From: Mortierella sp. BCC40632
Lineage: Eukaryota; Mortierellomycota; Mortierellomycetes; Mortierellales; Mortierellaceae
DNA: 64,000 nucleotides
NCBI GenBank assembly: GCA_011634665.1
Contig: WAEK01000002.1
Location: 1,633,001-1,697,000, forward strand
Reading direction: 5' to 3'
Shown: one piece after another, positions 1 through 14,050 of the stretch
Layout of the letters: each line of letters starts with the position of its first letter
Position numbering within the stretch: position 1 is the first letter of the stretch
Notes under the pieces: model-generated
What the model saw: the letters and a program-made list of their open reading frames with translations, nothing else
Told to the model about the DNA's origin: nothing
Databases searched by the model: none
Program-made: the position numbers and the translations under genes

Positions 1-447
1 GACGGCGGGGTCATTGATTGTGCTATCGTCAACAGGATCGTTGGTTGAATTATTGGTAGCGAGATTGTCGATGGTGTTATTGTCGGTGGGAATATTGGTG
101 GCGATACTACTAGCGGGATTGTTGGTATTGGTATCGCTGCTATTATGGCTTTCAAGGATGTCATATTCAGTGGCCTTTTGCTTTCCTTTCCCTCGACTGA
201 TCGCTGCTTGCTTAGATCCTTTAGGCCGTCCTCTCTTTTTGGCTGCCACTGGTGCTGTAGTTGACGACTCTCTGGGGTGAAATGAGGGTGATGGTACGAA
301 CACAAATGTCTTTGCTCTTGCTCTTGCCGATGCTGCTTTTGATGACTCTCCGCGACAAGGCGTGGACACAAACACGAAAGGATTAGGATGAGAGCTAGTT
401 TCTTGCCCCATTTCCAACTCCTCAGAAATGGAGGCCTCCAAGGTCAT
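1..447 (-). CDS. AT-hook protein, N-terminal part, runs off the left edge
   Basis: Read on the minus strand from an ATG at 447, the frame stays open to the first base of the window, about 149 codons, so the 3' part is missing. Around residues 78-84 there is a basic KKRGRPK stretch, which matches an AT-hook (RGRP core) that binds the minor groove of AT-rich DNA. It is followed by more Lys/Arg, then an Asn/Thr/Ser/Asp-rich low-complexity tail. It lies just downstream of the truncated MULE transposase on the same strand, with no visible homology to the C-terminal part of the second MULE transposase, so it may be a separate gene or a tail acquired by the element. The function beyond DNA binding is unknown. 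Confidence 0.5.
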   Translation of the reverse strand, partial: MTLEASISEELEMGQETSSHPNPFVFVSTPCRGESSKAASARARAKTFVFVPSPSFHPRESSTTAPVAAKKRGRPKGSKQAAISRGKGKQKATEYDILESHNSSDTNTNNPASSIATNIPTDNNTIDNLATNNSTNDPVDDSTINDPAV

Positions 448-665
448 GATGAGATGAGGAAATGGCTAAAAATGGCAGTGGTGTTATTTTTCCTCCAAAG
501 GGCTGTTTTCAGCTTTCCCCTGGAGATAGGAGATGAGCTGGCGAAAACTTTTTAAGCCACGGCTGGATCATTTCTCCTATTCAATCGGTATATAACTGTA
601 CTCAATCGGTACTGCTCTCTGCTAATAAAATGTACTACCAATGGTGAAAAGCGACTCACTCTTAC

Positions 666-1235
666 CGCTTGAAGGCTCTGCTCATCAGGGATGAGCCTGC
701 TCGACAGAGAATACCAATCATAACCCTTTTCCGCCAGACGCCGAACCCAGCTGCGTTCATTTTGACCAAGAGGCAGTTGTGCGCGATCATCATCATGATT
801 GTGCCTCCATGTGTACCTGACCACAACCTTGTCCTCCTCTCCAACAGGTTGTGCCATGAAGACCTGTGCCCTGCAACGTTGACCCACTGATTCACGTGGG
901 AGAGAGATATCTTTTTTCTTGCGGTGGCGACGGCAGGCAAACGTGAGTCTCCAAGAGTACATGGTCCTTGTGCCTGCAACTTGTTCAGATGTTTTAAATG
1001 GAAGTGGAGTGCTCGGATCGTCCTTTTGATTATAGAAGGTTGAGTACTGATTGGGTCTATGAACCCACATACCAGTTTGCCGCTCTTCCGCCCACCATCT
1101 ACGAAATTCGTCGCATGTAAAAGTGAATTCCTTGGTGCTAGTGTCGTTTGATGAGAATTGTTGAGGTTTGATGTTGTTTCTGGGGTCGTAGTTGTGAGCA
1201 ATGATAAGTACATCCTCCAATTTGAGACCAGACAT
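666..1235 (-). pseudogene. MULE-type transposase copy 1, only the N-terminal DNA-binding exon remains
   Basis: The frame opens at an ATG at 1235 and holds a Cys/His domain with CRRH, CRAQ and a YTWRHNHD end, which resembles the WRKY/GCM1-FLYWCH zinc fingers that precede the catalytic core of Mutator-like (MULE) transposases. It aligns with the start of the second transposase in this window: both share RESVG, a C-x-A, the [W/K]HNH end, then RA[Q/R]LPLG. A GTAAGAG donor follows at 665, at nearly the same place as the donor in copy 2. Downstream of it I find none of the DDE core or SWIM finger that copy 2 has. The copy therefore looks truncated at its 3' end; the alternative is a domesticated DNA-binding protein. 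Confidence 0.6.
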
Positions 1236-1735
1236 TTTTGGAGCAGCCGATTGTGGGGAGTTGTTGCAGTAGGCTCACAGAAACGTGACAGAGGGCCAGG
1301 GATGAGGGGAAAGGCCATGCAAAACCAAGTAATGCTGGCGATGGTATTGACAGGCAAGCGGATAGGAGTGAGTGTAGATGTGTATGTGGAGTGGCGCGTG
1401 TGTATGTGTCTGTTTGAGGGAGATAAGACTGCGGAAGAGAAGGGGAGGATGAGAGGGAGCAAAAAGCGGAAAAGAGGAAAAATATTGCACGTACCACCTC
1501 AACCCACATGTTCATAGAATCCACTGCCCTTTCTCTGCCGAACTGATGCAGGGAAGAGATGCCGGTATTGCATTCCTCTCCTCCGCATTTCCTTTCTTTC
1601 CATGACAGCCCAATGCCGGCTGCAGGTCGCACCAGTATAGAACCTCCTCTTCCCGCTTCAATCTAAGCCACATATTCTTTAAGAACGCGTTCTGTTTCGC
1701 GTTTGATTTTGATTGCTTCACCTCATCTCCCCGCC
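1236..1735. promoter_or_regulatory. Divergent intergenic region of element 1
   Basis: This 500-bp stretch separates the start of the truncated MULE transposase (minus strand) from the start of the XPG-Fanzor gene (plus strand). I see no gene in it. It should hold both promoters. The second element has the same head-to-head arrangement with only about 100 bp between starts. Confidence 0.4.
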
Positions 1736-2862
1736 ATGGGCGTGAAACGCGCGTGGCAACTACCAGGCAAGAAGGGGTTTTTTCCAAACCCACAACACAC
1801 AATCTCGTCAACCGGCGTCATCCGCGTTGATGTCTGCTCGACCCACAACGTCCTGATAAAAATCATTTATGAGAACGCCACAGACTTAAATGCTGCACAT
1901 GCCAAGCTCGAATGGTGGCTCACAAGACTGGGGAGCAAGGATCAGCTGCGTTTCTATGTTGATGGTGAACCGGCACAAGAAAAGATGGATGTTCATGCCA
2001 GTCGCCGTCGACACCGTCAACAATCTCTATCGAGGGCTGCCGCTGCCATTTCAATCCTCGAATCACGTCTCATTAAAAAGGCTCGGATTCGCAAGCACCA
2101 TATAAGCAACGCACGCAAATTCCTGCGTCAGTCATTCTATTGGCCATTGGAGCAGCGCCGGAGTTTTGTAGAGTACATGAGCAATAAGGGCCATAACATC
2201 GTGTTGTGCGTAACCGAGGCAGACACGCTCATCGCAGCAGAATGCCAACCACAAGATGCAGTTGTATCCTGCGATAGTGATCTCCTGTTTTACAAGACCA
2301 TTCGCGTTGTTTGGCGTCCTATCGGGTCATACAAAGCACGCCGCTTTGTCCCGTACGAGAAAGGTGCCCTTCTCGAGGCACTCGAATTGTCTCCAAGCCA
2401 GATGACCGCTCTTGCTGTATTAAGCGGCAATGATTACGTCCCAAATATTCCCTACCTTGGACTTATGACCAATTACAAGATAATCAAGTCTTTGGAAGGT
2501 GGTAAGAAGGCAGGCGATTTTGATATTGACCTACTTGTTCTTAGTGCTCTGACAGCTAATATTGTCTCTACCGTCCGTCTTTAGATGAGAGAAGTATTGT
2601 CCAGCAGTACCTTACTCGCCCAGAAGTAAAGCGACGCACGGACAAAGGGTGCGGAGATTGGACTGTTGAGACTTATAACAATGCTCTCAAAGTCTTCGTG
2701 GAGATGAAACAGGACAGAGTATCAGACACAGCCTTTCCGTCCTCTTCGGCTACGAACAGCCCATCACCTTCGTATGCTACTCTATGCCAGCGGTTGGATC
2801 GATTCCTGGTTGAGTTTATGGCGTCCAAGAAAAAAGCGTATGAAGAACGCGTGGCCAAAGAG
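1736..2862 (+). CDS. XPG/FEN1-like nuclease module of XPG-Fanzor copy 1
   Basis: The start at 1736 gives MGVKRAW, close to the MGVxGLW opening of XPG/FEN1 family structure-specific nucleases. The metal-binding acidic positions of the family are recognisable in order: RVDV (N-region Asp), FYVDGE, the XPG-I stretch CVTEAD then SCDSD, and GNDYVPNIPYLG (last Asp with the helix-turn-helix glycines). An intron interrupts the frame after the SLEG region, with a GTGGTA or GTAAGA donor near 2499-2502 and a TTTAG acceptor ending at 2584. The frame then resumes in phase and ends at a GTATCA donor at 2863. The nuclease core is intact here. The downstream Fanzor-like part is on the same strand and appears to belong to the same transcription unit. 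Confidence 0.72.
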
Positions 2863-2972
2863 GTATCAGGCGCCCGTCCTCGCATTTAACAGGCCTTGGC
2901 TACAAATCAAAACGATTACTAGTGAACACTAACCGTCTCAATGTTTCTACACCTTACGTATTTGCTGTCAAC

Positions 2973-5900
2973 AGAGCGGTGCGTGATAAACAGTCGAGAA
3001 CCGGAGGAGCAGAACCCGAGCAAGCTAACATCTTTTTACGACTGACCAGCCGAATCCTGCCAAAAACCATCAATTTCGACCAAGATTCAGCCCCAAGGTC
3101 CGGTATGAACCTATGAAAGAACATCCTGCCCCTGCGATCTCCAAAGAATACCAACTAAAGCCATGGAAGCAGGCACCTGAGAAGCCGTCGGTGGGGACAC
3201 ATACGCCAAAACCCAACAAAACGAAGCCTGCGGACATCAAAGCCGAGATCAAAGAGAATGACAGCTTTGGGCGTAAGCAAATTTTAAACGCCCTATCGTT
3301 CGAGCACCCAATCGTATGTCTGGATCTTGGCCGCCTGGCCCCTAGTATTCATGCCGCCGTCAATGACGATGGGGCCGCCAAGGAAGTCATCGAGTGCATC
3401 CGTGGAGCTGTCCGCGCTGCGTGGAGTTGTAAACGGCGCTGTCAGATTTTGATTGGTCTATATCTGGAGTCTGTTTTCTATCCTCGGCCACACCCTGGCG
3501 CCCCTCGACCTGCGGCACCAGTGACAAGCATCACTCCACAAGATCGTGAGATCCTTGAAAACTTGTGCCCTTCTCTAACATCCAAGGAGATAGCTGACGA
3601 CGACCCCGTCAGCTCTATAGGGGGGATGGTGAAGACGATCCATCTAATGTGCGCTTTCTCCATTCTTTCATCAGCTTTCTGTACTCCGGCAACCCGCCTC
3701 GTGAAAGGAAAATCTTAGTATCCGGCAATCCGCCAGATACTAAGAAAAAAATTGGAACAGTCGTCAACTCCTTCATTAATCGACTGGAAGAGTTGGGCCA
3801 TTTAGACACATCGAACCTCACCAACGCAGTCATGATCCAGAATGTCAAGGAGTACACACCAACGCTGTTGGTCCGTTCGGTAGCTTCACAGCTTTCGGTA
3901 GAGCTCATGCGACACTATAGGCAAGGAACGAAAAAGCTGTTGGAAATGGTAATACGCCCGTCAATGTTAGTTATTTCCAATTTTGTCAAAATGGAGACAA
4001 ACAATTCAAAGTTAAATAATCGTTTTTCTGTATATGTCACAATAGATCCGAAAGATGATCAGAAAGGGCCGATTGCCAAACAATCAAGCAATCGATTTGT
4101 CCTCTAACGAGCCAGCGATCCAGATCTTTGTACGAGCAAATGCTACGGCTGGCCGGCCTTGGCGACTCTCACCGCTGTCGCCAGAAGAGCATGGATACAT
4201 GACGTTTACCGAGCTAGAGCTGGCCGCATTTCTACACAAGAGGAAAACATTGCATCCCATCCTGGCGAGGATTATTGGATCTGAGGACCGACAGAGATCT
4301 AACTCAGACAGAGCTGACTCGTGACTGGATCCCACACCAGACGCCAGGCCTGTTCATCCAGCACATCATAGCTCCTGTGGACCCCAAGACTTTGACTGGT
4401 GATCGTGTTCGCGGTCGTGAGAAGAAGGAAGCCGGTGTCTCTGCCGCAGTCAAGATTGTTGATCCAGATGACATCCGGGACCACATCAATGATCTTCGCC
4501 GAGACGGATTTGACCCAACAGCTTACGAAAAAGGGGATATTTCCTGCGTGGCTCCATAAAAACTGATGGATACAGCCTCCAGTTGCTGGCATATAAATTA
4601 CGTGAGCTCAACTCGGTCAAGTTCAAGCGTTACAAGACCGAGGTTCTACCCGACCGTCTCCTCTCAACTACAGCCGGCACAAGCGACCATCTCACCGAGG
4701 TGCATAATGTCTTCAAGTCGACTGCTGATGTCGAGCGTTTGCTTGGGTGCACTCCAGGCGAAACAGATAGTGTGTCGTACCTAGGAATAGATCTGGGCCA
4801 GGCCTTTGTGGTAGGGGCGAGTGCGATTCTCCCGGAGGGTATGACCATCCGAGTCGGTAAGCGACGGCGACACCGGCAAAAAAAGAAACGAGGCAGCCGG
4901 GGCCGGCGCCCGAGAGGTAGCGGCAAGGGAAGGAAGATAGCCAGCCGGGAGGGCCGTGAGCGGTACATCAATCTCGCAGCCAATCAAAAGGCCGTTGCGC
5001 GACCAACTCTCGCTCACAGAACCTGGCTTGAAAATCAAAAGTCGGCCGGCCTGACGCGCCCCCCTCAAACCCGAGTCATTGGTTGTACCGACCGTCAGCA
5101 CAGACGCAACGACTTCATTGACACTTCAGTCTTCCACCTCTTGTGTCAGTCCAACGGTGTCTGACCTCCTTTCGATTAGCTTGATCGAATCATCGCTTAC
5201 TCCTCTGTGTGGTCCAGATGCCGCGACTTTTCCACACATGTGCAGCAGCGACAAGCGAACAAAGACCACCTGGACACGTTTTACAATGGCCGTCAATTCA
5301 AAGTCAAGAAGTACACGCAGATGGCAAAAGGGCAAGGAAGAAGGAGTTTTGTCAGCTTGCAGACTCGCTACTGCGCATGGTTGGCGGTTCTTTGGGCGAA
5401 AGGAGGAAAGAGAATGCCAAGGTTGTCATTGGCATTGGCATGGGCCAATTCACCTCTACTTCCCGACTGACATCCTTACATGGATCATTCGAGGCATTTT
5501 TCGTTCAGAAGGTAACATTTTATTGTAAGTTGCAGTGATTTCTTTCCAATCCTGCTACTGATAGCTGTTGGATTGACTCTCTCTCCCCTCTTTCAATGGT
5601 ATAGGTTCGAGCGCTCGGCTATGTCTTGGTTGGAATTAACGAGTTTTATACCTCAAAAAAGTGCCCAACATGCGAACAATTTGTCGGTGAGGCGGGCAGT
5701 ATGAGACGCCTGTACTGTTATCGATGCCATAAGTTCCTCCACAGGGACATAATGGCAGCACACAATATGTGCACCGTCCTCAAGAGGCATGTGGAACAAC
5801 AAAAACGACCACTGTATTTGCAACCTGTAGATGCTGAAGGCAATTATCCATGGCTTGATAAATCCAGCGACTCTGACCCAACTCCAGACAGTCGTGGAGG

Positions 5901-6048
5901 TGGTGGTAGCAAGCGCCAGGCAAAGGAGATCGGCGAAGCCGATCAGGAGAAGAGTAGCAAGCGGAACAAGGCAACCAATGTCAAGAAAAAGTCGTCCAAC
6001 ACCACGAGTTCCAAGACAACAGCAACTGAGCAAGGGTTGGCAACGTAA
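2973..6048 (+). pseudogene. Fanzor/TnpB-like RNA-guided nuclease module, copy 1 (frame-broken)
   Basis: The segment aligns block by block with copy 2 (10174-12995). The RuvC signs are SYLGIDLG near 4780 (first Asp), IGIGMGQF near 5440 in place of the usual Glu motif, GINEFYTSKKCPTC near 5630 (candidate alternative Glu plus the first CxxC), and CYRC with HRDIMAAHN (second CxxC and last Asp). A Lys/Arg-rich insert follows the first motif, as in nuclear Fanzors. An intron at 5512-5604 joins two exons in phase just before the zinc finger and matches one in copy 2. The frame changes near the six-G run at 3620, near 4270, and several times between 5040 and 5340. The middle is therefore damaged, although some breaks could be small unrecognised introns. 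The stop is at 6046-6048. Confidence 0.62.
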
Positions 6049-6101
6049 CAAGCAGTATGCAGATTGATAGCTAGATAGCATTTATTTTTTTTTTACCTTG
6101 G

Positions 6102-6213
6102 GGTGTTCGTCAACACCTTTGTCTACTATTGAGTAGATCTTGATTGCTGCGCAGGCCGAGCGCGTCTCCATCCGGTGACGTAATCGTAGTCCGATGCGCG
6201 GCCGTCAAAAAAA
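6102..6213 (+). ncRNA. Candidate omega-like guide RNA scaffold / right end, copy 1
   Basis: It lies 54 nt after the Fanzor-like stop. Hairpin A pairs 6102-6107 with 6112-6117 (6 bp, CGTC loop). Hairpin B pairs 6122-6126 with 6133-6137 (5 bp). After a 35-nt spacer comes CGGTGACGTAAT (6173-6184), then CCGATGCG, then TCAAAAAAA ending at 6213. The same order and almost the same spacing recur behind copy 2 with different stem sequences. TnpB and Fanzor guide RNAs come from the region at and beyond the 3' end of the protein gene, which is the reason for this call. The strong third hairpin seen in copy 2 is not clear here. A DNA-level transposon end is an equally possible role. Confidence 0.4.
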
Positions 6214-6235
6214 GGGATATATGCCAGAGGACTGT

Positions 6236-8876
6236 TTATTTGAGTTCTTGGGCTAAGTTCACAGTCTCCTCTAGCTTGGCAACGGTGCCTTGGAGATCCT
6301 TCCATGCACAATGGCGCTTTCTGGGACTGTCAATAATAACGCTCAGTTCACTCCAGAGTCTCTTCAACTTGGCGTAGCTATCTTTCATCTCTGCTGCTCT
6401 AGCTTCTTCCCTTTTCATTTTCTCATCTCTTTGTCTAACTTTCCTTTGTACCTCCAGCTGGTAGATCAGGTCTGGTGAGATAATGCTCTCTCGAGGGAAT
6501 CCTGAAGCCTTTTCAGAAAGTTTTGACTCCTGTATCCGAGTTTCTCTGGCTCGCTCAAAGTAGGCGATTTTATGCCTACCGTAGATCCTTGCAATTAGGT
6601 ACATGTGCTTGCAGGGTATCCGATGTCTCGTGTAGTCGGGACACGAACATGAGCAAAGGGCATCCTTCTCGTGATCCAAAGCTACCGAATACTCTACTCC
6701 AGGAACGCTAAAAGGATTTGACAATGAACTGCAATAGTGTACAGCGGTCAGGATTAATCCCACACAGTATTAATAGAGTAGGTACCTGTTGATACATACC
6801 GCATGGGCTGCTACGTTCTCTGCAACCATTGCTTTGGCGGTACCAACATCCAATGCCATGGCTTCCTTTTTTCTCTCTCACCATCATACTCAGAGTGCTT
6901 CACTGGTTGAACGCCATGATCAACCTTGAGAAGTTGAGCCTTGAAGTCTCTTTCTATCTCTCCTTGCAGCAAGAACATGACAACATCAGCCCTGTATCCA
7001 GTCTTGCCATCGAGGTAATGAGATTTGAGGGTATGGAACCATGATTCCAATAGATTGTTTGTGTCGACATGTTGATAATTCTATTGGCGACAAAAAGAGA
7101 TTTGAGTGGAGAAGTCCATATCTCACCCATCATAGCAAATCATTCCGCATACCTCTCGGACGAAAAGTACCCACTTCATTCTCTTTTCGCAACTAAGCCA
7201 ATTTCGCTCAAGGAAAGTAAAGCGTTCAGTCCCTGGAAAGGCGACTTTAAACTTTTTGCCACAATCCATCCAGCTCCTCATTTGATCTAGCACCGCGTAT
7301 GGCTTTAAGTGCAGGCTCCATTTGGCCCCAGTGTCTCTTCTATCGGAGAGCAAGACCCGTTAATTTAATGAATGTCAATGGCTTTTGATATCATTCACGA
7401 TAACTCTCGCGTACATTGCAATCTTTTCTCATGCGCCTCTCCCATATCTGGGCCACATGGAAGAGGCAATAATAGATGGCAGTTTGAGGGAAGATGGCTT
7501 GAACAGCCTCCGTCTCTATTGGCGAGCAATCCATCATGAACTTTGACACTTTAAACTGGCATGTATCCTTGAGCCAGCTTAGCCACTTCTTGAGCAGAAA
7601 CCTACAGACCTTAGTTAGGGACGATGCCATGGTTCAAGCTACTAGTTTTACTGGAACAGAGCCAATTTCTTACGTGGATTCGGTACTGCAAATCAAGTAT
7701 GCAATGGGAAAGCCTTTCTGTAACACGACATCCTTGACGAGGATGGTAAACAAAAGCCGAAGCTTCTCTGATCTTTTGACATTAGGCATCAACGGTCTGA
7801 ACACTTTATGTGTGGAGTCCATGCAAGCTATGAGGAGGCAGTTGCGATGCATAATCTAACGGGGCACGCATACAATGAAGTAGATTAGAGTCGACTATGA
7901 ATGCACTAGCATAGTGATACTAACGTAAATTCATACTTAACCCTACCCCTAACTGGAATTTTGTGCACCATGCAATCATGTACGACTTCTCTTTGCCTTC
8001 CGTCTCGATCTGGAACATGCCTTCTCCTCCTCTCATCTTGATGTCCTTGATCCAGAGGTGAACGCTTTTTGAAGATATCCTGGTCTTTAGTGGCCTCTTT
8101 CATCTGCCGACGATAAAACACGCCATGCACATCCTTGTAGTTGATCAATAGACTAGAGGAGAGAGCACTGTTGTGTTCAAGCTTGTTGGAAAGGTTCTTA
8201 GTATTTGTAGACTCATCACTGTTGCATTGAGTGGCAATGACTTACCAAGCAGAGGTTGTCTTCGCTGGGTATGAGTCGTTTTGGATTCCCTTCCAGTCAA
8301 GTCCTTGGTCGACGTTCGACTTGATCCAATTTAACTCATTCGCACCCAAGGGCAAACGTGCCCTGTCTGACATAGAAGTTCCGTGGTTGTGTTTCCAATA
8401 ATACTCGACAACGACACAGTCGTTCCCCATGGGCTTCTGGATTCTGATATGCGCCTTGCATCCTGTACCAACTGATTCCCTTTGTAGATGTGTTTTACTC
8501 GAGGGGGCCGCCGCCTGCAATCATATCGTACTGTCCAGTCGAAGCTCCTTGGTCGGCCTGGCCCTATGTGCAATTCCTTATGAGTTGGAAGGGGGTTGTC
8601 CAAGCTTCCATTGTCAAAGACAATACTGCGAGAGTTTTCTTCGCTGCAGCGTAGCCATTGGAAGGCATCTCGTTCTTGGTTCCAGAACTGTTTAAATCCA
8701 TCGACTGAGAAGACCATTCGAAGAGGAATAGGTGAATCAACAGGGATAGGATGAGGGCTGACAATGGCATGAATGTCATAGTCAGGCGAGTAGGGCAAGA
8801 TGTCTCTGGCTGTCAAGGGATGCATTGCTGATGTGGTTGATGAGAACGATGCAATCATGCAAGCACCTGATATCAT
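6236..8876 (-). pseudogene. MULE-type transposase copy 2, full length with frame breaks
   Basis: Read from an ATG at 8876 down to a stop at 6236, the order of domains is that of a Mutator-like transposase. First comes an N-terminal Cys/His domain ending YYWKHNHG. Then the DDE core: MDSTHK near 7815 (first Asp) and FMMDCSPIE near 7530 (second Asp), with the region NNLLESWFHTLK near 7040 that follows the Glu. A SWIM zinc finger follows at about 6660 (CSCPDYTRHRIPCKH). A basic coiled-coil-like tail ends the protein. Introns and at least two frame changes interrupt it; one is in a five-C run near 8507 and one in a five-A run near 8060. It ends tail to tail with XPG-Fanzor copy 1, 22 bp from that copy's conserved end. 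Confidence 0.7.
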
Positions 8877-8975
8877 TTCTGGGTCGCTTAAGCCACATTT
8901 CTCACAAGCAATAAAAAGGCTTCTGTCTTCCAACCTTGTCCTCTGACCCCCATCGCCATCGCAATCAGTTTCTTG
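8877..8975. promoter_or_regulatory. Short divergent promoter of element 2
   Basis: About 100 bp separate the first plausible ATG of the MULE transposase (8876, minus strand) from the ATG of XPG-Fanzor copy 2 (8976, plus strand). The two genes must share regulatory DNA if both are transcribed. No TATA box is evident. Confidence 0.4.
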
Positions 8976-10095
8976 ATGGGAGTCATCGGACTATGGGGAT
9001 TCATTCGAAGAAAGGGGTACCACCCAAAAAATCACTCACAGCCACCGCATCCACCATCGTCCGGAACTAAGATCAGAGTTGATCTTTTATCATCCTTTTA
9101 TCCGACAATTAACTATGCTTATTCCCATCATTACGATAATCCAGCCATTGCTCACAAGATCCTCGAAGAGACCATCACTCGGCTTGGTGGCAAGGACGAT
9201 ATTGTGGTTTACATCGACGGCGGACAAGCAAAGGAAAAAGAGGCTACTCAACTTTACCGAGCAGGGTTACGCCAAAAATCTCTTGATCGAGCTAACCATG
9301 CCCTTGATAACATCGAACAACGAGTATCAAGCAGAAAAACAGTTAAAAAGCATCACATAAACAATGTCAGCAAATATTTGCGGAAGGCGTTCCATTGGCA
9401 AGAAAGTGATCGAAGAGGATTCTTTGACTACATGTTTGAGAACGGATGGGATGTAAGATGGTGTATCACGGAAGCTGATATCGAGATCGCCACAGATTGT
9501 CAACCTCAAGATATCGTCGTTTCAAAAGACAGCGATCTTCTTGTTTACCGTGCAGTTCGACAGCTTTGGCGACCAATGGGCTGTTGGAAAGAGTATGGTA
9601 CCAAGTTTACGACAAGTCGGCTGTCCTTGACTCGCTGGACTTTGATGACAATCAGCTTCTCGCTCTTGCAATTGTCAGTCATAACGATTACAGCAAAAAT
9701 GTATTTTCACTTGGACTCGAATCCAATTACACAATTATCAGAGAACTTTTGGGCGAAGGTACTGTAATGGTTGCGATGAAATGAACGACTGCAACGGTAT
9801 GTTCTTCCGATTGTTTTTTTTTTATCTAACTTTCTTTTTTCCTCACAGACGTTGAGAAAATAGTACGGGAGTACTTGTTACACGATCGCGTTCAGTCCAA
9901 GAATATCAGCAAAGAAGATTTTGCAATTTCAACCCGGGTTTTCGCAACCCTCAAGCAGACGTCCGTTACCGCTACCAGTCCATTCAGCGAATGCGACAAG
10001 GATGTCGGTGTCCTCCGCAAACGCCTGTCAGACATCATCAAGAACCAGAGAGAGCAGCGGAGAGCAGACTATTTGGCTCGGAAAGAGAGAAGAAG
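8976..10095 (+). CDS. XPG/FEN1-like nuclease module of XPG-Fanzor copy 2
   Basis: The ATG at 8976 opens MGVIGLWGFIRRKG, a typical XPG N-terminus. The acidic positions follow: IRVDLL, VYIDGGQAKEK, CITEADIEIA, SKDSDLL and HNDYSKN. The first four blocks are in one frame. A one-base frame change near 9585 puts the last Asp block in another frame, so this copy is damaged. An intron (9759-9848) follows the HhH-like region at the same place as in copy 1. The exon then ends AG at 10095 before a GTGGGG donor, and the next exon starts at 10174 in the phase that continues the protein. This supports one joined gene with the Fanzor part. It shares order and motifs with copy 1 but is strongly diverged from it. 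Confidence 0.7.
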
Positions 10096-10173
10096 GTGGG
10101 GTTAACACCTATTCCTTTTTGGTTTTTGCAAAAGCATGTTAATCAATCTCTTGTACATACGATACATCGATAG

Positions 10174-12995
10174 GAGTTTGCTCGAAAATCAAGAGCCAGT
10201 GGCTACGATTAAGCATCGACCCTTCTTTACCAATGACAGACAAGGTCGAAAGAGATATTCTTACAAACAACGAAATGAAGCGACTAAGAGGTACGATCCA
10301 CCAGACAAGCTGCTTCAATACCAGTGGAAACCTCACAGGGAAAATGCCGGTGCAGCCACGCAACTGGAGGGTAATACCAGTTCAACCATGCAACCGGGGG
10401 GGGATGCCAGTTCGAACACGCAACCGGGAGGAAATGTCAGTTCAACCACGCAACCGGTACCTGCGAAGAAGATACCAAAGATCCGAAACAAGATAAAAAC
10501 GCTAGTAAAAAAAAAACTGTTGCAGGAGATGGAATGGGAGCACCCCACGGTTTCCCTCGATATGGGCTCCCTCAAGACCAATGTTGAAAAGGCTGTCCCA
10601 GATCAAACACTTGCGAGCCAAGTTGTTTCATGTATCCAGAAAGCCGTCCGGGAAGCTTCTCGTGTCAAACGCCGATGCGAAGAACTCCTTGGCCGGCCGA
10701 TATCTCGATGTGATAGTGTTAGCTGATGGTGACATCTGTAATGAAGACCAAGCGTTCTTAGACTATCTTTGTCCTCACGAGGATGAAGACGAAAGCACCG
10801 GCGCAAGCGACGCGATTTGTGTGGAAGACTGCCCCGCAGACAAGGACAAAACAGGCGCGTTTATCCACTCACTTATGACTTATCTGTACAGCGGGAATCT
10901 CTCGACCAAGAAAAGCGGAACCGGTGCAGTAGTCAACAAGTTTATCAAGCGTCTACAAACTCTAGGCTTGTTACCTGAACCAGACGCGAAGGACTTTCTC
11001 AATCCACCAAACAAAAAAGACTTTACTCCGTCGTCACTTGTGAGATCGGTAGCCAAGCAACTCGCAACTGCATTGAAAGAAACACTGGCGGCAAGGCTGC
11101 CGAAAGCTCTCAGAAGAGGTTAGTAATCTTCGATATGACATCAATAATCAATAACTAGCCTGCCGAACCACTGACTCATACTTTTGTCATCAAAAATTAG
11201 CTATGCCGGCAAAGAGGACAAGGACGATGGCCCATCGTGTTTAATTTCGATATGGGAATGCGGAAGCACGTCCCGGTCTTCGAGTCATTCGCGTGGTTTA
11301 ACAGCCTCGTCGCCCGCCCGTGGCAGACAATCCCATTGTCACCTTTCGCAGATGGCTTTATGAATTTTACGGAGTACGAGGTGGGACAGTTTCTATCAAA
11401 GGTACCCGAGTTACAAGCACACCTAAAAAGGGGATAATGGATGGTACCGAGGAGAGCGAGTTTACACAAATAGCACTTGTCCGCGATTGGCTACCTGGAC
11501 AGGAACCCGGCAGCCTAATTAAGCACCTTATCTTGGATACCTCAGTGGAGGGACTCACCTCAAGACAGAAGGGAAAGGCAGGGTTAAAGGCATTGGTCCG
11601 GCACTTCACATTTCAACAGACCGAAGACCATATCAACGAACTCAGGGATCCCTCGTTTGACCCACGAGAGTACAATGAGAAAGGATACGTGTTACGAGGC
11701 TCCATTCAGACGAATGGGAGCTTGCTTCGGCTGCTTGCTTTCAAGATACGAGAGCTCAATTCAGTTCGCTTCAAGAGATACAGTGCAGCTCGCATGCCCA
11801 GTCGTATCACGTCGGATACCGGAGGAACTGACGGATTCTTGAAAGAAATACGAAATGTCGCAAGCTCTGTTCAGGATGTTCGTGAACTTTGGGATTGTTC
11901 GCAAGACGAAACCAAGGACGTTTCATATCTCGGTATCGACCTAGGCGTGACCTGCGTTGTTGGGGCATGTGCCATTCTACCCGACGGCAATAACCCCAAA
12001 AGCAGAAAAAGGAAGAATCGAGGCAAGAGAAAACGAGGAGGAAAAAGAAAACGAGGATGTAGAGGTGGCAAAAACAGACACGGCAAAACGATCAATATGG
12101 ATGTAGAAGAAAACGGACAAGAGATGGATAAGGATCGAGCTAGGTTTATCAACCTGGTTGTCAAACAAAAGGCAACTTACCAACCATTATTCAAATTCAG
12201 GCGATGGCTTGAAAAAAAAAAAACAACGCAAAACAATACCGGACCAGGATGGGCATGGCCCCAGGTCCATCAAAGATGTGGAATCTTTACTTCCGGCGCG
12301 ACGTGGCAAGGACTGTAGCATGTCTTCCTATTTCGATCAAGTAGCCAATTATTGGCAATACCTCGACAGTTTCTATAATGGTCACGACCAAACATTCAAT
12401 CGAATGAGGCGCTGTCTAAAACGAGAAATGGATACCGAGTACAGACTGATCACGGACAGCTTACTACGTATGGTCGGCGGTAACATTGGCGCGAGGCGCG
12501 ACAAATCCGACAAAGTGATAATTGGAATCGGTCTCGGGAATTTTCCTCAACATCTGGACTATCCTCGAGACACAGTTCATTCCTTGACTACTTCACTCGG
12601 AAGGTATGCACCAATCACGTTTACAATCAACTGGCCTGTCTCCTACACTGTACTGACAGTCTTCATTGGTACTTTGTGCATAGGCAAGGTCTCTCGGTTA
12701 TGTAGTTGTCGGAGTGAATGAATTTTATTCATCAAAAAAATGTCCAAGGTGCCAAAACTTTTTGGCACAAACAATCTCTATCCGGAGACTTTACTGCCAG
12801 AAGTGTCAATGGTTCCAGCACCGAGACCTGATTGCAGGCGAGAACATTGCAAGAGTCCTCAAAGGGTTTATCGAAACTCAAGAAAGGCCCGAATATCTCC
12901 AACCGACGGATATCAACGGCGTTGCTTTATGGAAGCGGCCAAGTCAGCCGCCGTGTCACAAGCGGAAGTGGCAAGAGATAGAAGGGGAACATTAG
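10174..12995 (+). pseudogene. Fanzor/TnpB-like RNA-guided nuclease module, copy 2 (frame-broken)
   Basis: The blocks are in order: a linker with imperfect repeats (10360-10450), a helical N-terminal region with LVRSVAKQL (11040), RDWLPGQEPG (11490), SYLGIDLG (11930, first RuvC Asp), a Lys/Arg-rich insert (12000-12080), IGIGLGNF (12530), GVNEFYSSKKCPRC (12714, candidate alternative Glu and CxxC), then CQKC and HRDLIAGEN (last Asp). An intron near 12613-12690 precedes the zinc finger, as in copy 1. Frame changes occur at a tandem GGCC GGCC near 10693, near 11400, and at the A12 run near 12215. In Fanzor1 proteins the canonical RuvC-II Glu is, from memory, replaced by a relocated one, and the IGIGLGNF / NEFY pattern fits that. 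Confidence 0.65.
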
Positions 12996-13019
12996 CTTAG
13001 GTCTCATAGGATTTTTTTG

Positions 13020-13128
13020 GTGTGTTGCACACACACAGAAGCATTTCGCTTCACTCAGATCGGCATGCAATCGCGGCTGAAAATACGGTGACGTAATTTC
13101 AGCCGCCGATGCGTGGCTTTCAAAAAAA
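13020..13128 (+). ncRNA. Candidate omega-like guide RNA scaffold / right end, copy 2
   Basis: It starts 24 nt after the Fanzor-like stop. Hairpin A pairs 13020-13024 with 13028-13032. Hairpin B pairs 13038-13042 with 13048-13052. Hairpin C pairs 13073-13082 with 13097-13106 (10 perfect bp, extendable outward with one bulge per side) and presents CGGTGACGTAA in its loop region. CCGATGCG and TCAAAAAAA follow, ending at 13128. The spacing from hairpin B to the CGGTGACGTAAT motif is 33 nt, against 35 nt in copy 1. Stem sequences of A and B differ between the copies while pairing is kept, which is what a selected RNA would show, although two sequences are few. Confidence 0.45.
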
Positions 13129-14050
13129 GAAAAAAAAATCCTCCCATACAATGAATTGAATATCTAAGATTTCTATCTACCTAGTTCAAATAGATCATAA
13201 ACGATGTCCAGCGCTTCTTTGGTAGATGACTTGAGGAGCCTCTTTTCCCCAACAACTGTGATAGAGAATATGCGGAGTGGGCATGGTAATTACAAAGCAT
13301 TGCCAGTGGATATCCCAGGCAAATAAACACTCATTTGTATAGAGCAACTAGGCGTTGCGTGCTTCAAGACTCTCGCACAGTCTTATTGACAGCTTTCCTA
13401 GAGCTTATGTCTTTTGCAAGCTCTTGAGTGTGCAAAAAGCCGGCGTTAACATCCTCCTATGGATCTAACACCAACTGTTACCTCCTGGGCGCGTTTCTTA
13501 AGCACTACCGACCTTTTCTACGCTTCGAGAAACTTTAATTTATTTGATCCCTCCTCCCATGCTCGGCTAAGCAGCCAGTCCTACTTTGGGTCTATTCGAT
13601 TCTTTGACCAGCTTAATCCGGAACCGAGCAAGTATGAACTGCAAGACTCTCTCCTTCGTGTCCTCTTTGATACTCCCAAGAACCGAATCTAATGAGCGTG
13701 AAGGCGGAGTGAGATAGCCACGAAATCGTGAACGAAAATTTTACACTTGGAGCTCGGTTGGCAGGAAGAGACAACACCTTTGGACTCCATGGTAAGAGAC
13801 TGGTGGCGACACTGAGGAATACTCTTTGGGAATTACAATCAGTATTGGTATCTTGAATACAAGAGGTAATGGATAGCTGTGTTGGCACTATTCCTTGGAA
13901 GTTAGAGCGAACCAAACTTTATAATGCAGTCACTCAGGTAAACAAAGGCTTTTTTTTTTTTTTTTTTTTTTTTTGTATTCCCTTACACTTTTCTTGTCCC
14001 CCGCCTTTCACTCTCTTACAAACCCATTACCATACCACCAGTAAAGGACA
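13129..14050. other. Intergenic, no supported gene
   Basis: Between the end of element 2 and Nsa1 there are only short frames without recognisable motifs, for example a 77-codon frame at 13459-13692, and a poly-T run at 13950-13974. I cannot support a gene here. Confidence 0.5.

Follow-up and report, generated by a model that had tools for sequence, protein, structure and literature searches.

Two plus-strand fusion units

The window analysed here is a 64,000-nucleotide stretch of Mortierella sp. BCC40632 (C2:1633001-1697000 within the 49.9-Mb genome). It contains two plus-strand units, copy 1 (~ 1736-6048) and copy 2 (~ 8976-12995), in agreement with the original prediction of an XPG-like nuclease followed by RuvC blocks, present twice. 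The encoded protein is predicted to open with a 5' flap nuclease/exonuclease of the XPG family and to close with a Fanzor1-like nuclease, the two being connected by a linker that is disordered in part. Both copies are colinear with intact relatives over nearly the whole protein, and a transposase sequence on the minus strand lies divergently beside each of them, as a fragment only in the case of copy 1.

In copy 1, the XPG half starts with an ATG at 1736, and its first exon (1736-2501) shares 62% identity with residues 1-258 of the related protein P0011. Exon 2 (2584-2850, ends approximate) was delimited by the splice scan and holds the end of the XPG half (P0011 residues 259-285). The linker and the first part of the Fanzor-like half follow at 3038-3951 (P0011 residues 313-600; frame change near 3600), succeeded by the WED/RuvC part at 4034-5521 (end approximate; P0011 residues 596-1034 onward; frame changes near 4295, 4520 and 5330). 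The last exon (5605-6048) carries the alternative glutamate, the zinc finger and the HRD. Copy 2 is built in the same manner. Its first XPG exon (8976-9784, end approximate), which starts with an ATG at 8976 and has a frame change near 9600-9650, is colinear from residue 1 with protein P0008 and with the fusion at locus L070, and its counterpart in L067 is a single open frame. The last XPG-side exon (9848-10095, start approximate) is followed by the linker and the first part of the Fanzor-like half (10174-11078; frame change near 10700, from comparison with relatives), the WED/RuvC part (11249-12600; frame changes near 11440 and 12230-12260) and the last exon (12684-12995), which supplies the alternative glutamate, the zinc finger, the HRD and the stop codon. 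The linker of copy 2 also includes 30-base tandem repeats, at 10344-10457.

The junction of the two halves had been predicted in copy 2 between an exon end at 10095 and an exon start at 10174, in matching phase. The splice scan reproduces it exactly: a phase-2 donor at 10096 opens an intron (10096-10173) across which the exons join in frame. The same phase-2, in-frame border intron is present in the related loci L067, L068, L069 and L070. Copy 1, which had been expected to share this intron, does not have it, and only phase-0 in-frame joins were found there.

A related copy within the same genome, L070 (C9:2239000-2247300), consists of six exons separated by five GT-AG introns, which join into a single frame of 1346 amino acids. 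Searching databases with this fusion disclosed 53 proteins, all from Mortierella-type fungi (Mortierella, Dissophora, Linnemannia, Podila, Entomortierella, Benniella and others), the best of them 1315 amino acids long and 54% identical over 99%. A profile search, which scored no more than 8000 candidates, listed at least 16 proteins, including four new ones, P0162-P0165, which match 86-96% of the query. In the alignment constructed from 46 of the 53 database matches, the tested positions of both halves are occupied in 21 proteins. The halves have diverged together, with a distance correlation of 0.67 among 24 proteins that was reached in none of 2000 permutations. Scans of viral contigs and genome contigs, which reach close relatives only, confirmed no relative.

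Pairing of the two halves was also surveyed throughout the genome, using 74 of 112 RuvC rows (one per place), all 56 rows of a second search and 11 of 54 rows of a third (places not yet covered). All place counts are lower bounds, since only the best candidates were scored (e.g. 39 of 271). At least 30 of 48 XPG-type places are followed within 4 kb downstream by a RuvC-type place of the same orientation, and two pairs are in the wrong order. Chance neighbourhood was rejected as an explanation, with no XPG/RuvC pair on opposite strands. The Fanzor-like copies at C11:1387k, C6:2605k, C6:2147k and C5:641k are well preserved, and no XPG half was detected ahead of them; these may represent losses or an XPG-less branch. 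Judged from gene structure and protein comparisons, the XPG-Fanzor fusion itself is almost certainly real.

Identity of the nuclease halves

The N-terminal part of copy 1 matches the Pfam domain XPG_I with an E-value of 1.7e-4, which misses the Pfam cut-off, while a profile of the 46-sequence family reaches Rad2 at 2e-13 and FEN1 at 2.9e-12, thus bearing out the claim of an XPG N-terminus. All seven acids that bind metal in XPG nucleases are conserved (20/21, 31/31, 34/34, 35/35, 34/36, 37/37 and 37/38 in the 46-protein alignment); their labels, D34, D86 and so on, follow FEN1 numbering. Equivalents of FEN1 K93 and R100 are conserved in 31/31 and 30/31 proteins, respectively. Structure searches with the predicted structure assign the fold of this half to EXO1/FEN1/XPG; the VIA-align comparison mainly tests residues 2-297, one domain filling its list. 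A host FEN1, RAD2 or EXO1 gene was rejected as a candidate, because the family is repeated and located inside transposons, and the best XPG_I matches of the genome lie elsewhere.

For the second half, a zinc-finger end of TnpB/Fanzor type had been proposed, and the last exons of both copies indeed match Cas12f1-like_TNB (PF07282) above the cut-off, with E-values of 2e-10 (copy 1) and 2.4e-11 (copy 2). In the 46-protein alignment, the first RuvC aspartate is present in 45/45, the alternative glutamate in 35/38 and the last aspartate in 35/36 proteins, and the position taken as that of the canonical glutamate holds E in 3/35. The alternative glutamate is located six residues ahead of the finger, as described for Fanzor1 in PMC10711439. 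The Fanzor1 motif D-X(125,275)-[TS][TS]-XX-C4 finger-X(5,50)-RD (PMC3627910), relaxed to X(2,50) ahead of RD, fits 49 of 50 finger-holding proteins. The guided_TnpB model was matched in 5/5 proteins with E-values of 2.6e-10 to 5.8e-8, which miss the NCBI cut-off. Structure searches had been named as the check for both halves, and for the predicted structure of this one they point to Fanzor1 over about 480 residues.

Two sequence patterns following PMC10711439, in our own rendering, fit the family poorly, the one with DPG in 0/50 and the non-DPG one in 5/50 proteins, with spacing limits contributing to the result. A pattern search of that type would mostly overlook the fusion lineage. The fusion also widens the range of Fanzor architectures. 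Among the matches listed by the protein searches (the best 120 of 180 in one of them, with no more than 8000 candidates scored in two), no Fanzor came from outside the fusion family.

Transposons carrying the fusion and their right ends

Copy 2 is located in element 2 (6215-13121, plus strand), a whole transposon with about 20 bases missing near its left end. It is bordered by the 8-bp target duplication AAAAAAAG at 6207-6214, directly 3' of the right end of element 1, and again at 13122-13129. Its right end is common to four other copies in the genome, and the copies are ~ 98.3-99.0% identical to the one in the window (98.7% over 6949 columns for the C25 copy). Duplications of 8 bp were found in three of the five copies, namely AAAAAAAG in the window, TAGTCCGA in C15 and CCACTACC in C3. 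Mutator-like elements (MULEs) generate target duplications of 8-11 bp, and MULEs without terminal inverted repeats (TIRs) are known. The divergent transposase gene of element 2 (6236-8816, minus strand) is interrupted and probably of MULE/SWIM type, as indicated by a SWIM match of 3e-7. SWIM is above the cut-off in the window, L068 and L070 transposases; MULE (3.9e-4 in the window, 1.3e-5 in L068) and FAR1 (7.5e-4 in the window) miss it.

Copy 1 belongs to element 1 (647-6206, plus strand), which is left-truncated: its homology starts at 647, and the copies in C7 and C11 reach further left. Four other genome copies share the end base 6206. Its copies are 98.2-99.5% identical to the one in the window, except for the truncated C15 copy (85-94%). 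The high identity among copies of both elements indicates recent movement. A minus-strand fragment at 669-1217 (C2:1633669-1634217) corresponds to the N-terminal part of the L070 transposase (E 2.1e-21) and gave no Pfam match. Genome-wide, this part of the transposase was detected at 17 places; comparison by hand showed that 13 of these are divergent from an XPG match lying no more than 3 kb away.

Element 2 abuts the right terminus of element 1 at two places, in the window (6206-6215, with AAAAAAAG) and at C15:126079 (with TAGTCCGA; L018, L015), and thus in two of its five copies; element 1 is left-truncated at both. The same abutment with different 8-bp duplications suggests that the two insertions were independent and targeted. 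In addition, the L068 fusion copy (C6:2622k) is joined to rDNA, the right side (L016 2900-3576) being eukaryotic large-subunit rRNA (RF02543, 395 bits).

The stop codon is separated from the right terminus by 158 bases in element 1 and 126 bases in element 2. In both elements and in relatives this segment forms a series of hairpins, with fold z-scores of -3.1, -6.0, -5.4, -3.0, -1.65 and -3.0 for six sequences. The series reaches the right terminus at 6094-6206 in element 1 (z -3.1; hairpin H1 covaries) and comprises three hairpins at 13012-13121 in element 2 (z -6.0; 0/200 shuffles as good), both on the plus strand. RNAalifold recovers H1 unaided from 12 right ends, with compensatory changes in three of six pairs. 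None of 500 shuffles reached its covariation score, and 7/500 had as many pairs with changes on both sides. The alignment used 12 of 14 segments, leaving out L091, a near copy of L084, and L090, which has no H1 in its best fold; L084 and L085 represent one subfamily. Since this is the location of the omega RNA in Fanzor and TnpB elements, we propose the structured right end as the best candidate for the omega RNA scaffold. No Rfam match was found at the gathering threshold in window positions 1-14000. The motif CGGTGACGTAAT occurs near the right ends (6172-6190 and 13084-13100), is common to several subfamilies and has a GUGA loop in some; it may serve as an RNA motif or as a site for the transposase.

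Proposed working, alternatives and relation to known systems

We consider it fairly probable that the units are copies of Mutator-like DNA transposons that carry a transposase gene and a divergent XPG-linker-Fanzor1-like gene, and that they work as follows. The transposase would cut and paste the element, leaving 8-bp duplications. A transcript of the right end would give the omega RNA, with the hairpin series before the right terminus as scaffold and the flanking DNA as guide. The Fanzor-like half, presumably translated from one transcript with the XPG half, would then cut the resealed or element-free site, and the tethered XPG half may process the R-loop or the cut ends by flap trimming or 5' resection, in the manner of FEN1/EXO1. 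Such processing would favour repair that copies the element back. The original prediction included neither the transposase nor the broken state of both window copies. Its two-domain reading stands, on the strength of structure searches and of predicted proteins from other assemblies that join the halves; its 'self-copying or homing device' is something that we infer, in the context of the element 2 transposon with its duplications and structured right end.

Several observations weigh against this interpretation. Neither window copy has an intact frame; comparison with intact relatives shows about four exon-internal frame changes in each, so both are broken here or contain small assembly errors. 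Searching the whole genome with XPG_I gave six matches, none in the window and one at a related fusion place (C7:2785175), which indicates that the XPG branch of the fusion is divergent. Values of dN/dS for XPG are 0.9-1.0, although the eight rows represent two distinct element-2 copy pairs only and a frame change may spoil them, which makes the values unusable. DPG in RuvC-I is described as near exclusive to Fanzors (PMC10711439) and is mostly missing (L 24, P 6 and M 1 of 31; P in 3/44 at this position of the alignment), and we therefore call the half Fanzor1-like, not a plain Fanzor1 member. None of the solved Fanzors appeared among sequence matches up to E 1 or E 10. Further pair types of H1 were reached by 104/500 shuffles; the hairpin is an alternating GT/AC stem, in which a slide by +2 pairs 69% versus 87%, with a covariation of 0.247 versus 0.318, and it was not seen by eye in five of 18 right ends (L071, L073, L078, L088 and L090). 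No 8-bp duplication was seen around element 2 in C25 and C4, nor around element 1 in C7 and C11, the two places where both of its ends could be compared (its window and C15 copies are left-truncated). No clear TIRs were found, the ~ 11 of 22 matching terminal bases of element 2 (by eye) being weak at best, and the name 'Mutator-like' is accordingly taken only from the transposase and the duplication length. Finally, 44 of the 74 RuvC places detected lack an upstream XPG place. Many of these are fragments, but C11:1387k, C6:2605k and C6:2147k have long open frames and may represent XPG-less relatives.

The last of these counts bears on the question whether an XPG-like gene simply precedes a separate Fanzor-like gene in one transposon, the two being fused only by gene predictors. 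The Fanzor half alone at 44/74 places and the XPG half alone at 18/48 would fit such an arrangement, as would the 25 of 46 aligned proteins without the tested positions of one half and the marking of several database proteins as partial. However, the border intron has the same phase and joins in frame in four subfamilies, L070 holds the whole 1346-aa frame, and single proteins are predicted in many assemblies, which makes two genes very improbable. Even less credit is given to the idea that the copies are dead relics of an old fusion that no longer has a function. The broken frames in the window and the truncated, diverged C15 copy of element 1 would fit this idea, but other copies are 98-99% identical, the L070 frame looks intact, and active sites are kept among proteins 34-52% identical to P0008.

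The alternative that we take most seriously, while still regarding it as unlikely, is transposition without RNA guidance, in which the Fanzor-like half binds element ends only, XPG trims intermediates, and the hairpins are DNA sites of the transposase. Hairpins that extend to the terminus and hold CGGTGACGTAAT, common to several subfamilies, could indeed act in DNA. Against this are the conserved catalytic D-E-D, the fold of Fanzor1, whose members were solved with omega RNA bound, and the position of H1 directly after the stop codon, together with its compensatory changes. It is improbable, too, that the XPG half has no nuclease activity and serves only to bind DNA or as an anchor. The Fanzors characterised to date need no XPG domain for cutting (PMC10432273) and many genome copies show no XPG, but all seven acids and the K93 and R100 equivalents are conserved in the half itself.

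A bolder reading describes a natural two-nuclease RNA-guided machine, in which finding of a site by guide RNA through the Fanzor-like enzyme is combined with a tethered flap nuclease/exonuclease that processes the R-loop or the cut ends and so drives homologous copying. It would have arisen within a Mutator-like transposon and then spread in Mortierella-type fungi; we give this an even chance. Among the titles and abstract openings listed in the literature searches, none describes an XPG nuclease fused to a Fanzor or TnpB. Databases already contain the fusion proteins, nearly all annotated as hypothetical; one is called a putative transposase and one a Rad2 nuclease. Why eukaryotic transposons keep Fanzors has been raised as an open question (PMC10711439). 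Fusion with a nuclease that processes ends would point directly to the conversion of a guided cut into homologous copying as the role of the Fanzor, an idea that can be tested in the fusion by mutating the two halves separately. Exonucleases have been joined to Cas nucleases by engineers to bias repair; if our reading is true, the XPG-Fanzor fusion is a natural, evolved version of such constructs.

Fanzor1 proteins (SpuFz1, GtFz1 and PpFz1) share with the fusion the fold over ~ 480 residues, the alternative glutamate at -6 from the finger, the C4 finger, the RD motif and residence in DNA transposons. The fusion differs from them by the XPG nuclease in front, by RuvC-I with mostly DLG instead of DPG, and by the lack of sequence matches to solved Fanzors; an inserted domain, FRI, is described in PpFz1 (PMC11423790). 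TnpB of IS200/IS605 and IS607 also has the RuvC core and the zinc-finger end, but its glutamate typically lies ~ 50 residues before the finger (PMC10711439), and host, size and the extra domain are further differences. Fanzor1 is known in MuDr elements of Rhizopus, Phycomyces and Mucor (ROr-4, PBl-3 and MCi-4; PMC3627910), which likewise represent Mutator-type elements of early fungi. As described there, these have TIRs, 9-bp duplications and no MuDR transposase, whereas the elements presented here encode a transposase as well as the XPG half, show 8-bp duplications and have no clear TIR; the word XPG has no occurrence in the main text of that paper. In comparison with the XPG/Rad2 family (FEN1, EXO1, Rad2/XPG and GEN1), the XPG domain of these elements belongs to a transposon protein, where it is joined to a Fanzor-like nuclease.

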